Assembly: GCA_029933895.1 (NCBI GenBank) | Contig: JAOZNG010000032.1 | Location: 1-10,560 of the forward strand | Reading direction: 5' to 3' | From: an archaeon | Lineage (GTDB): Archaea > Altiarchaeota > Altiarchaeia > IMC4 > QMZM01 | Length of the DNA stretch: 10,560 bases | Shown: piece by piece, positions 5,292 through 9,363 of the stretch | Layout of the letters: each line of letters starts with the position of its first letter | Numbering within the stretch: the stretch's first letter is position 1 | Notes under the pieces: generated by a model | Told to the model about the DNA's origin: nothing | Databases searched by the model: none | What the model saw: only the letters and a program-made list of their open reading frames with translations | Translations under genes and position numbers: made by a program

Positions 5292-5938
5292 TCCTCCTGT
5301 ATCTCCCCCCTCCTTGGGTTAAGTATAGTAATCCTGCTCTTGTTAGCGGCTTTTATTATCTCATTCCGTTTTCTCCTGCCAACGGAACCCGCTATTATTG
5401 CAGCCTCTTTCTCTGGATTTATCTTATCCAGCTCAGCTACGTTATGGATCCTGAAAGGGTGGAAACCTGATGGGTGAAGCCCCCGTGTTTCCTTCCTTTT
5501 CTTGTAGCCTATGCTGGGGTTTCTGGGCTTACCTCTCTTTCCCTCAGCCTGCTTGGAGTCCTCGCCTTTAGGCTTCCTCCACACATCCCTTAATCTCTTG
5601 AGTTTAGTGAACTCCTGTCTCATGAAACGTGGCATGGCTTTTTTCTCCCGAAACCTTATTCTGTAGAGTCTTTCCTCATCTTTGGAGAGTTTCTTCCTAC
5701 CATAAAACATAACCCTTTCCACTGGAATCTCCTTCACTTTTTTCTCTTCTGGTTTCTCTTCTGCCTCCTCCTCCATGGATTCTTGTTTCTTGGTCTCAAG
5801 CCATTCAAGCAGTGTTTTCCTGTTCTTACCTTTCTTCTCTGCCTCTATAATGGCTTCGTAGTCTACGCTATCCAGTTTCCGGATTTCCTTTTTAACATCA
5901 CCTATCGTTCCCTTTACTATATCCTTCTCCGCGCCCAT
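5288..5938 (-). CDS. rpl32e: Large-subunit ribosomal protein eL32 with N-terminal helical module
   Basis: The C-terminal half is canonical eL32, an archaeal/eukaryotic 50S protein. The family signature FMRQEFTKLKRLRDVWRKPKG starts at about residue 105 (F-x-R ... W-R-K-x2-G), followed by RNPSIGYKKRKETRGLHPSG, VAELDKINPEKEAAIIAGSVG and KSRITILNPR. Total length is 216 residues against about 130 for a plain archaeal eL32. The extra N-terminus has three parts: a leader (1-13); a predicted three-helix module at 14-48 ([20 protein letters not shown] onward); and a Glu/Lys-rich linker at about 49-75. The module is nearly identical in protein and DNA to the C-terminus of RpoA2 in this window. Haloarchaeal eL32 also has an N-terminal extension, but as I recall it is a helix-hairpin-helix domain of different sequence. 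The start ATG is 8 bp after the rpl6 stop. The function of the extension is unknown. Confidence 0.95.
   Translation of the reverse strand: MGAEKDIVKGTIGDVKKEIRKLDSVDYEAIIEAEKKGKNRKTLLEWLETKKQESMEEEAEEKPEEKKVKEIPVERVMFYGRKKLSKDEERLYRIRFREKKAMPRFMRQEFTKLKRLRDVWRKPKGEDSKQAEGKRGKPRNPSIGYKKRKETRGLHPSGFHPFRIHNVAELDKINPEKEAAIIAGSVGRRKRNEIIKAANKSRITILNPRRGEIQEE
5795..5900 (-). repeat. Duplicated 106-bp segment, copy A (in rpl32e)
   Basis: This segment encodes residues 14-48 of eL32. Aligned without gaps to 8173-8278, it differs at five positions (101/106 identical), including a 49-bp stretch of perfect identity (5832-5880). Four differences are silent (Asp, Val, Arg and Lys codons); one changes Lys38 to Glu in the other copy. 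Outside these limits similarity drops quickly, though a conserved Gly four residues upstream hints at an older, slightly longer boundary. Confidence 0.95.
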
Positions 5939-5946
5939 CTTAAATT

Positions 5947-6492
5947 TTAGGATATCTCTTTACCGTCTTTCTCCACAATATAGATGCCGTCCTGAAAAAC
6001 CCGGGGGTCTAGTTTGGATATCCTCGTAGCCTGCTCCAGGTTAGCTGCGGTCTGAGCAACATTTTCTTTATCTATGCCTGACACGGTAATATCCTGCCCC
6101 CTGATTTCCACCTTAACACCATCCAGAATCCTTGACTTTCGGGGATACCTCTCCCCGATAAAGTTTTCTATAATCACGTTCTGTCCCTGAACCTTAACGT
6201 TCATGGGAAAGTGCGAGTAGAGAATCTTCAGTTTATAGATTATGCCCTCGGTAACACCCTTAATCATGTTAGATAAGTCTCCTCTGGCTGTTCCCATTAA
6301 AGACTTAACTCTCCTGTTACCGGCTTTACTGGACAATATAATCTTGTTATCTCTTTTCTTCATGTCCACATGGAATGAGGGGAATTTCTTGGTTATCTGG
6401 CCTGAATCGTTTTTCACTATAACCTGACTGTCTGCAATCTTTACCTCAACGCCTTCAGGCACCTCCACCTCCAATTCCTGTTTTTTCTCCAT
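5947..6492 (-). CDS. rpl6: Large-subunit ribosomal protein uL6
   Basis: uL6 lies at the base of the stalk near the factor-binding site of the 50S subunit. The 181 residues carry the two tandem L6 folds: the first with EVPEGVEVKIADSQVIVKND and the SLMGTARGDLSNMIKGVTEG helix, the second with YPRKSRILDGVKVEIRGQDI, SGIDKENVAQTAANLEQATR and the archaeal/eukaryotic signature DPRVFQDGIYIVEK. The middle segment YKLKILYSHFPMNVKVQGQN is also the archaeal form. The gene starts 2 bp after the rps8 stop and precedes rpl32e by 8 bp, its normal order. No truncation or missing motif. Confidence 0.97.
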   Translation of the reverse strand: MEKKQELEVEVPEGVEVKIADSQVIVKNDSGQITKKFPSFHVDMKKRDNKIILSSKAGNRRVKSLMGTARGDLSNMIKGVTEGIIYKLKILYSHFPMNVKVQGQNVIIENFIGERYPRKSRILDGVKVEIRGQDITVSGIDKENVAQTAANLEQATRISKLDPRVFQDGIYIVEKDGKEIS

Positions 6493-6494
6493 CT

Positions 6495-7415: not shown

Positions 7416-7850
7416 CTATCTGGATACGTTAACGTTTATATTGTCTATGTTATAGTGTCTCTTCGCCAGTTTTTTAGCGATTTTTATCCTGACACCATCG
7501 TGACCTATAACCTTTTTCCTGTCAGGCTTGTTTACCTCAACGTTGACTATTCTCTCCTCGTCTTCCTTGCTTATCTCCACCTTTTTTATTCTGACTGGAT
7601 GGAAGAGGTTTTTAATGAAGTTCTCTATGTTATCTGAAAACTCCATCACTATGACGCTTTTGCCTATAGCGTTCCTCACCTTCCCTATGTTGGAGCCGTT
7701 TTTTCCTATAGCCAGCCCCATGTCTCCCTTCTTTATGAGGAATGCCATCATGTTCTGGACGCTCACGCAGTCTTTCACTATCGCTCCAGTGAGTGTCTCG
7801 AACAGGGTTATATACTTTATCTCTTCATTGCTTAATCTGATTTTACCCAC
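7416..7850 (-). CDS. nusA: NusA-like transcription factor (archaeal two-KH form)
   Basis: Archaeal NusA consists only of the RNA-binding KH part of bacterial NusA and lies in the rpoA2-rpl30e-nusA-rps12 cluster, as here. The 144 residues match that size. KH1 has the loop IGKNGSNIGKVRNAIGKSV (GKNG at 49-52). KH2 has VIGHDGVRIKIAKKLAKR (GHDG at 116-119), where an acidic residue in the GxxG loop is somewhat unusual. Bacterial S1 and polymerase-binding N-terminal domains are absent, as expected. The start is GTG (7850-7848), with a G-rich tract (GGGGGG) about 5 bases upstream that could pair weakly with the 16S 3' end. A later start would cut the conserved LSNEEIKYITLFETLTGA. Its exact role in archaeal elongation or termination is not settled. 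Confidence 0.93.
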   Translation of the reverse strand: MGKIRLSNEEIKYITLFETLTGAIVKDCVSVQNMMAFLIKKGDMGLAIGKNGSNIGKVRNAIGKSVIVMEFSDNIENFIKNLFHPVRIKKVEISKEDEERIVNVEVNKPDRKKVIGHDGVRIKIAKKLAKRHYNIDNINVNVSR

Positions 7851-7862
7851 ACTTGCCCCCCA

Positions 7863-8159
7863 CTATAGTTCATTTAATATACTGCTTTCACCTGCATCTA
7901 TTACCCCTATAACGGAGACAGGGAAGGGTTTCCCGCATATGGAACCCAACTCTACGCTGTCGATATCTACCAACCTGCAGGGTGTCTTTGAAAGTCTGCT
8001 GTAATACATAATCTCCTCTTTATTCTCTGAGGGGCAATTACTGCTTATGATTATCAATTTTGGATTGTCATTTAATAAACCAGACACAACACTCCTGGAG
8101 CCATATATCACTTCGCCTTTCTTCACCACACCCTTAATCTCTGATTTAATGTCTGCCAT
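7863..8159 (-). CDS. rpl30e: Large-subunit ribosomal protein eL30
   Basis: eL30 belongs to the L7Ae/L30e/Gadd45 fold and is found in archaeal and eukaryotic 50S subunits. The 98 residues are full length: [20 protein letters not shown], then [20 protein letters not shown] (the conserved A/S-SNCP motif), [39 protein letters not shown] and the C-terminal end. The gene overlaps the 3' end of rpoA2 by 14 bp in a different frame, so its ATG lies inside the last codons of that gene. AGGT four bases before the ATG is a weak Shine-Dalgarno. The order rpoA2-rpl30e-nusA-rps12 is the usual archaeal one. Confidence 0.96.
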
Positions 8160-9363
8160 TTTTTACCTGCGACTCAAGCCATTCAAGCAGTGTTTTCCTG
8201 TTCTCACCCTTCTTCTCTGCCTCTATAATGGCTTCGTAGTCTACGCTATCCAGTTTCCTGATTTCCTTTTTCACGTCATCTACTCTACCCTCCAATAAAC
8301 TTTTTTCCTCTATTGGTTTCCTTGGAGCTAGAGGGGATTTAATTGCCAGCTTCACCGTGCCTGTGCCGACAGGTATGGGCTGACCTATTATTATGTTTTC
8401 CGGAACACCATCCAGGGTGTCCACTTCCCCATGTAGTCCTGCCATGAGTATGTGTTTCTCTGTTTCCTCAAATGATGCTCTGGCCAGTACTGACTCCTTA
8501 GAACCTGAGATGCCCTGTCTTCCCACGGCTTGTATCTCTCCTGTTATGGTCATCTGGTCAGCAACCAGCATGATGTGTCTTATATCCACGTCAAGGTCTT
8601 GGTCATCCAAAACCTTCATGGCCTCGGTTACTATGGCATTCCTGCCTGCTTCCACCCCCAGGGTTTCATATATCTGCCCGATGTCGTTTGAAGTGGTTCT
8701 TTTTTTGTCTATTCCCTTCATGCCATATACAACCTTCATGTTGGAGCCGTTAGTATACAGGACATATTCGTCGCCTTCTTTTCTTATGAAAATCTTCTTG
8801 ATGCCCTTAACTCCCCTAATCCTTTTCTTGGCTAGTTTGTTTTGTATCTTCTTCAGGTCATATAGTGACCCCTTCTCTATGATGCAGACATCACCGTCTA
8901 TTTCGTCTTCAGTGTATTTCATCAAAATCTTTTTGGCGTCGTCGTCTTTTGTTTCGATCCTCAGCTGCTTGTTTTTGACATCGATTTTCATGTCACATAC
9001 ATCCGGGAGAAAAACCTCAAGGAGTTTTTTTGCTATCTCTCCGGCTTTTTTCTCGTCTTTGCGTATGTCTTTCTTCAGGTAGATAATCATCATAGGGTCC
9101 CTGGGGTTCCTCCTTGCGTCTATTATTTCAATAAGCCTTGGAAGCCCTAATGGGACGGAGAGCTCAACAACTCCAGCATAGTGGAATGTTCTCAGCGTCA
9201 TCTGTGTACCTGGCTCACCTATAGACTGGGCGGCTATTGTTCCAACAGCCTCTCCGGGCTCTACGAGTGCCTTATGATAACTATTAAGGAACTCCTCTCT
9301 CATGCTCTTATCCATGGACTTCAGCCTGTCCCTTATACTTTCAGGAATATCTCGTTCAATCAT
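8146..9363 (-). CDS. rpoA2: RNA polymerase subunit RpoA2 (Rpo1C, A'') with C-terminal helical module
   Basis: RpoA2 is the C-terminal part of the split largest polymerase subunit. It supplies the trigger loop and part of the jaw and cleft. The conserved start [20 protein letters not shown] lies at about 33-52, followed by the trigger-loop region [16 protein letters not shown] (53-68, with the catalytic-type Leu57 and His61) and [19 protein letters not shown]. The C-terminal conserved part has [40 protein letters not shown] and [18 protein letters not shown], ending around [10 protein letters not shown] (about 333-342), where typical homologues stop. A further 60 residues follow: a linker and a 35-residue module at 363-397 nearly identical to the N-terminus of eL32 in this window, then SQVKNGRH. 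Total length is 405. The start ATG overlaps the rpoA1 3' end by 8 bp, with GGAGA directly before it. Confidence 0.97.
8173..8278 (-). repeat. Duplicated 106-bp segment, copy B (in rpoA2)
   Basis: This segment encodes residues 363-397 of RpoA2, the second copy of 5795-5900 (101/106 identical, no gaps, same orientation and same reading frame, 2378 bp apart). It ends eight codons before the rpoA2 stop. The rpl30e start lies just beyond it, so the module sits at the very 3' end of rpoA2. Confidence 0.95.

Follow-up and report, generated by a model that had tools for sequence, protein, structure and literature searches.

A small, predicted helical module appended to archaeal ribosomal proteins, RNA polymerase and membrane proteins, with probable homogenization between host genes

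In an Altiarchaeales genome (G000; 1.44 Mb in 264 contigs, 75% complete), one whole contig of 10,560 bases, here called the window, carries two near-identical copies of a small protein module, one in the gene for ribosomal protein eL32 and the other in the gene for RpoA2, the A'' subunit of RNA polymerase (RNAP). The explanation that we consider best, with a probability of about 0.6 for the whole of it, is that the module belongs to a family appended to many unrelated proteins, that its copies are homogenized by gene conversion, and that it docks its hosts to a common partner or to itself.

Near-identical copies in eL32 and RpoA2

The longest direct repeat that a repeat finder picked out in the window spans 5795-5930 and 8173-8308, in the same orientation. 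Over 35 codons (5795-5899 compared to 8173-8277, minus strand), the copies agree at 100 of 105 bases and at 34 of 35 residues; of the five base differences, four are silent and one is a Lys/Glu change. One more base matches beyond the 35 codons, which gives the 101 of 106 bases reported in the initial annotation, and re-alignment agreed with it on the single residue change and on the silent differences as well. Its claim that the likeness goes beyond protein constraint also held. Among the 34 codons that specify one residue in both copies, with Met and Trp excluded, 29 were identical; codon usage, drawn solely from the fetched host genes, predicts 14.1, and none of 20,000 draws reached the observed number. 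For the closest RpoA2 relatives, Candidatus Altiarchaeales archaeon ex4484_2 (86% identity) and ex4484_96 (81%), the corresponding numbers were 22 of 28 (11.4 expected) and 12 of 24 (10.1 expected), respectively.

The module was found at the N-terminus of eL32 and the C-terminus of RpoA2 in all three genomes of the window's genus that were examined, which answers the question whether close relatives carry both copies; in ex4484_2 (L003) and ex4484_96 (L004) it occupies the same positions as in the window. The two window copies are closer to each other (100 of 105 bases) than either is to its orthologue in ex4484_2 (97 of 105 for eL32 and 89 of 105 for RpoA2), and the gene bodies of eL32 and RpoA2 alike are 86% identical between the window and ex4484_2. 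The initial annotation had offered recent duplication or ongoing conversion as the source of the likeness. What is recent is the homogenization between copies and not the insertions.

The pattern of individual sites suggests which way the exchange may have gone. Along the module, positions 49, 57, 63, and 105 sort by genome, and positions 6 and 73 sort by gene. At nine sites the RpoA2 copy of ex4484_2 stands alone, and at 13, 20, 93, and 94 both ex4484_96 copies agree with it. At these four sites the window RpoA2 has a derived base in common with the eL32 copies, a pattern that suggests transfer from eL32 to RpoA2. The putative main tract lies between the gene-sorting positions 6 and 73, and the RpoA2-specific Glu at position 73 is kept in all three genomes; positions 93, 94, and 105 hint at a wider exchange. 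Gene conversion over short tracts would account for this pattern; in the window it would have run mainly from eL32 to RpoA2, after the split from ex4484_2.

Homogenization in other lineages

DNA likeness between hosts drops at the edges of the module. In genome G133, the modules of eL31 and eS24 do not differ at any of the 108 visible bases. Identity over the module columns is 93% for eL31 and eS24 in G154 and 89% for uS3 and eS24 in G075, and in all three pairs the flanks are unlike. Among 176 modules compared, 27 were closer to another host in the same genome than to the same host elsewhere, several of them at low identity. When 12 pairs, chosen after the within-genome identities were known, were compared with the codon-usage expectation, nine exceeded it at P<0.05 (uncorrected), and for five of these none of 20,000 draws reached the observed value. 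A permutation test in the nanohaloarchaeal family f24 gave a within-genome DNA identity between different hosts of 0.582 compared to 0.567 (standard deviation, 0.0027; 0 of 1,000 shuffles) and a weaker result for protein (11 of 1,000 shuffles). This test was set aside as evidence since it is confounded by shared codon usage.

The module copies also bear on genome assembly. Contig C24 of G133 (15,140 bases) has a module at both ends, in opposite orientation, and in G032 and G110 the eL31 and eS24 modules face each other ~15 kb apart on one contig. Taken together, the identical copies at the ends of C24 and the layout in G032 and G110 make it seem that the G133 assembly is broken at the modules. 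In G133, contigs C24, C7, and C35 (L094, L102, L107, and L112) end in identical module copies. Such copies may therefore explain an assembly break in at least one genome, and modules may be able to break metagenome assemblies of such archaea.

Anatomy and predicted fold of the module

At the protein level the module is ~43 residues long (~43 to 50 across the family). The 35-residue unit of the initial annotation is thus a real repeat, but the module is longer, and relatives show in addition a weaker start, [D/E]Y..[I/V/L][V/L], the Tyr of which is present in 75 of 114. In an alignment of 101 copies selected on length and on a profile E<1e-5, a Glu and an Arg spaced six residues apart never vary (101 of 101), a Lys in the first helix is found in 93, and a Trp, Phe, or Tyr near the end is found in 100. 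Both window copies match the family profile and have the Glu and Arg six residues apart; both are included in the profile, so that the E-values for these copies arise by construction.

The module is predicted to consist of three to four helices. AlphaFold modeling with 60 sequences gave three helices with a predicted local distance difference test score (pLDDT) of 84.5, and in a model of the tandem arrangement (pLDDT 78.5), for which most rows of the alignment cover the second unit only, each unit has one more N-terminal helix. Tandem modules were found in unrelated hosts, namely uS3, RpoA2, eL31, a membrane protein, and a coiled-coil protein.

Distribution across archaea

At E<=1, a search with one sequence gave matches, many of them weak, in 15 of 61 genomes, from the window's genus as well as from distant archaea. 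Profile searches of archaeal genomes then placed the module in a wider family. With a 15-row profile it was found at E<=0.01 in all 28 genomes of the phylum of G045, here called Nanohaloarchaeota, including the marginal G061 (0.0094 only, missed in a later profile search), in 4 of 29 genomes from the phylum that includes the window (the three genomes of the genus plus G003), and in 8 of 96 from the phylum to which G032 belongs. At E<=0.001, a 60-row profile matched 29 of the 394 archaeal genomes, and at E<=0.01 it matched 4 of 23 genomes in the same phylum as G292. Three of these last four matches are divergent uS3 tails (L172 to L174; G292, G324, and G384), a hint that uS3 is possibly the oldest host. 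A genome may have up to 11 matches; the window genome carries two copies.

Within the window's genus, uS3 bears the module too. It is intact in G002 (L043), and in ex4484_2 the uS3 frame is interrupted and the module lies in another, downstream frame (L236, G001:C13:28500-31500, open reading frames [ORFs] 1574-2146 and 1312-1626, minus strand). The window's own assembly has no uS3 above the family cut-off, and the uS3 tails of G003, G004, and G010 have no module. Elsewhere in the Altiarchaeota, eL32 and RpoA2 are without it. Among the other loci fetched with RpoA2, the tails of 17 RpoA2 proteins are short or rich in lysine and the N-termini of 12 eL32 proteins are charged and of low complexity, none of them with a module, and a profile search of the open frames of these loci did not find it.

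Host proteins

The hosts were counted in a selection of matches comprising 206 matching open frames, 170 of them distinct after removal of duplicates, from 44 genomes. By sequence cluster, 103 of the 170 ORFs are ribosomal or RNAP proteins: uS3 (32), eS24 (25), uL24 (16), eL31 (14), RpoA2 (9), eL32 (3), uL10 (2), eS6 (1), and uS4 (1). The nine RpoA2 hosts comprise three of the window's genus and six nanohaloarchaeal ones. Pfam confirmed representative uS3, eS24, eL31, uL10, and eS6 hosts; the eS24, eL31, uL10, and uS4 clusters were named from Pfam-tested members, with the uS4 assignment resting on the S4 domain, and uL24, eS24, and eL31 hosts with Pfam domains also turned up in a protein database. 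In family f24, eS24 carries the module in 19 of 19 genomes.

Two trends were apparent in the placement of the module. First, it is mostly terminal. In 100 ribosomal and RNAP hosts that carry it at the C-terminus, it stops 0 to 18 residues short of where the open frame or contig ends, and in 85 of them at most 2 residues short. Second, charged linkers often join the module to its host. The suggestion of the initial annotation that the repeat looks like a small mobile domain is supported in this respect, as the module recurs in other archaea at the ends of nine ribosomal and RNAP proteins and on many membrane proteins.

Among the other 67 ORFs, some of which are contig-end fragments, 36 have a transmembrane segment predicted by simple hydropathy. 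A layout of N-terminal module, transmembrane segment, and outer part recurs in Nanohaloarchaeota (L120, L126, L137, L130, L176, and similar loci); no Pfam family was matched by L120 or L126. Membrane proteins with an N-terminal module are candidates for a possible link between ribosome and membrane. One E2 acyltransferase has the module (residues 69 to 110) between its lipoyl (1 to 38) and E3-binding (167 to 202) domains. Other hosts resemble, by reading only, a methyl-accepting protein, an integrase, and a KaiC-like ATPase.

Relation to known families and to phage proteins

The module had no match above the cut-off in Pfam or NCBIfam and none among PDB sequences at E<=1. With Foldseek, the single module had no PDB match at E<=10 and viral matches only at E 1.3 or worse, and the tandem model had no PDB relative at E<=0.001. 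Foldseek and VIA-align gave middling helical look-alikes for the tandem model, several of them pentatricopeptide repeat proteins. Matches in PHROGs were limited to one repressor or families of unknown function, at E 0.0018 or worse. Protein-database searches with the module regions returned few relatives (3, 9, and 1 proteins), because the search needs shared exact five-residue words. No mention of the module was found by searches aimed at it in the open-license literature of PubMed Central (PMC), by which its absence from print is not shown, nor in passages of PMC8116511 and PMC7203096.

In kind, the module resembles tethered docking modules; its novelty lies in which proteins carry it and in the exchange of sequence among essential genes. 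The dockerin modules of cellulosomal enzymes are small modules that follow linkers at the termini of many unrelated proteins. The likeness is one of function, by analogy, as the new module is terminal and linker-borne and presumed to have a common partner. However, it matches no Pfam family above the cut-off, and its hosts are ribosomal, polymerase, and membrane proteins. The E3_binding domain (PSBD, PF02817) of E2 enzymes is likewise a small tethered helical domain; PF02817 matched neither two isolated modules nor the module of the E2 host (69 to 110), whereas residues 167 to 202 of that E2 did match. The stalk proteins uL10 and P1 have a common acidic C-terminal tail, which is similar in that one C-terminal element is found on several ribosomal proteins with an acidic linker, but the new module is a predicted folded unit and occurs on many unrelated ribosomal proteins and on RNAP. 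Finally, the longer eL32 of NCBIfam PRK12766 also has an extra N-terminal region. Its match covers model positions 71 to 234 and window residues 50 to 214, which leaves the module outside.

Six IMG/VR contigs match the module alignment. The proteins encoded by five of these contigs, two of which have one protein in common, terminate in the pattern AAE..GKNR.TL..WL (E 3e-11 to 9e-8), and the sixth contig has a short frame near its end. Hypothetical proteins of Microbacterium, Arthrobacter, and Streptomyces phages (L157, L159 to L162; L248 and L249) have a very similar C-terminus of ~40 residues, although their hosts are bacterial. A query from one such phage protein found 81 actinobacterial phage records at E<=0.1, and in two records that were examined the gene lies between those for the major capsid and major tail proteins. 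The window module itself matched two phage records at E 2 only, nothing beyond chance. For a unit this short, a common origin of the archaeal module and the phage C-termini is no more than a lead.

Layout of the window

The positions of the host genes and module copies are listed in Table 1. The eL32 gene was identified by Pfam Ribosomal_L32e (E 3e-33; 114.8 bits compared to a cut-off of 25) and the RpoA2 gene by RNA_pol_Rpb1_5 (E 2.3e-51; 175.3 bits compared to a cut-off of 28.5). The equivalog TIGR02389 scored 406.9 on RpoA2, just below its cut-off of 420.65; its match stops at residue 341, and a linker of ~17 residues precedes the module. By reading, uS12-NusA-eL30-RpoA2-RpoA1 adjoins uS8-uL6-eL32 on the upstream side, across a gap of 99 bases (6885-6983), which puts the module hosts eL32 and RpoA2 2.4 kb apart; this distance is comparable in several other loci. 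An ORF at 447-1262 (271 amino acids) matches no Pfam family above the cut-off. It combines a hydrophobic N-terminal stretch with repeated segments that contain Cys, and it includes an imperfect 32-nt repeat (1018-1049 and 1093-1124).

Table 1 Host genes, module copies, and shared DNA segments in the window
Feature	Positions	Strand	Description and basis
eL32 gene, 216 amino acids	5288..5938	-	Order: module near N-terminus, charged linker, L32e domain (residues 103-207)
Module copy A in eL32, residues 10-52	5783..5911	-	Profile match; aligned with the RpoA2 copy
Near-identical 106-bp DNA segment, copy A	5795..5900	-	Repeat finder and base alignment
RpoA2 (RNA polymerase A'') gene, 405 amino acids	8146..9363	-	Pfam, NCBIfam
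Module copy B, C-terminus of RpoA2, residues 359-400	8164..8289	-	Profile match
Near-identical 106-bp DNA segment, copy B	8173..8278	-	Repeat finder and base alignment
Putative main conversion tract in RpoA2	8206..8271	-	Counterpart 5828-5893 in eL32; inferred from site patterns

Weighing the explanations

Several observations count against a family of docking modules homogenized by conversion. At module position 91, the reasoning applied above to sites 13, 20, 93, and 94 gives the opposite direction of transfer. In a tree of the nine copies from Altiarchaeota no inner branch is supported, and the best tree does not join the window copies; joining them costs 6.84 log units and is not rejected (P 0.11). 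No excess of silent identity was seen for RpoA2 and eL32 in G002 (P 0.28) or for the pairs in G083 (0.20) and G077 (0.31), the G032 pair is borderline (P 0.049), and the way the 12 pairs were chosen weighs on the same side. Host sets vary from lineage to lineage, and the tandem AlphaFold model has a predicted template modeling score (pTM) of 0.50, with no confident packing of module on module. In approximately unbiased (AU) tests, a single RpoA2 clade (P 0.047) and a single eL32 clade (P 0.041) were both marginally rejected, and holding the RpoA2 copies of the window and ex4484_2 together, a grouping also absent from the best tree, was not rejected (P 0.09). A mosaic would look like this unresolved tree, and so, equally, would too little signal.

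That the second copy is spurious might be suspected in a metagenome-assembled genome of 264 contigs and 75% completeness. This is ruled out by the separate contigs of ex4484_2 and ex4484_96, which carry both copies in the same places and show the second copy to be genuine, by two more eL32 proteins from other data sets that carry the module, and by its presence in the single-contig nanohaloarchaeal genomes G045 (1,046,959 bases) and G078 (948,351 bases); the chance of an artifact is practically nil. Each genome might instead have received a fresh duplication into a new host, its existing copies remaining unconverted. The variation of hosts between lineages means that new insertions do occur, and the lack of a supported branch among the copies of the genus fits as well, but all three genomes examined from the window's genus have the module in both hosts, and the genus g24 genomes G032, G110, G133, and G154 have it in eL31 as well as in eS24. 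Because hosts are shared in this way, the likeness is probably younger than the insertions, and fresh duplication is improbable. The many copies in unrelated essential genes, some of them near-identical in DNA, also recall a selfish in-frame mobile DNA element that is merely tolerated, such as the Rickettsia palindromic elements, which are mobile DNA that inserts in frame into genes. The window has no inverted repeat pair, however, placement is mostly at a protein end or beside a linker, two residues are invariant across phyla, and eS24 has kept its copy throughout f24. A selfish element is accordingly disfavored and very improbable.

Two other explanations concern function. The modules could bind each other and thereby cluster ribosomes, polymerase, and membrane proteins directly. 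The tandem copies in several unrelated hosts and the number of matches per genome are consistent with such self-association, but the low pTM of the tandem model is not, and we consider it unlikely, though deserving of attention. A helical module that binds RNA or DNA and stabilizes the ribosome or the transcript is distinctly improbable.

Possible function and significance

Under the preferred explanation, of an appended module homogenized by conversion, the sequence can be swapped between hosts, from which we infer that all copies do the same job. This job may be docking to one common partner, or of module to module, by which ribosomes, RNAP, and membrane proteins would be brought together. 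A compact terminal unit on a linker would suit a tether, as would the copy in the linker of the E2 acyltransferase.

In the ribosome, the mRNA entry is lined by uS3 and uS4 and the exit tunnel by uL24 and eL31, and the stalk that binds factors is carried by uL10. Tags at mRNA entry, exit tunnel, stalk, polymerase, and membrane could join transcription, translation, and the membrane. We tentatively propose that Nanohaloarchaeota and a few other archaea wire ribosomes, RNAP, and membrane proteins together by one interchangeable tag, the copies of which are kept compatible by conversion. Concerted evolution between unrelated essential genes is unusual. A 2021 review still treats the coupling of transcription and translation in archaea as an open question (PMC8116511). 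If the proposal is true, the module would provide a handle on the coupling of transcription, translation, and membrane targeting in small archaeal cells.

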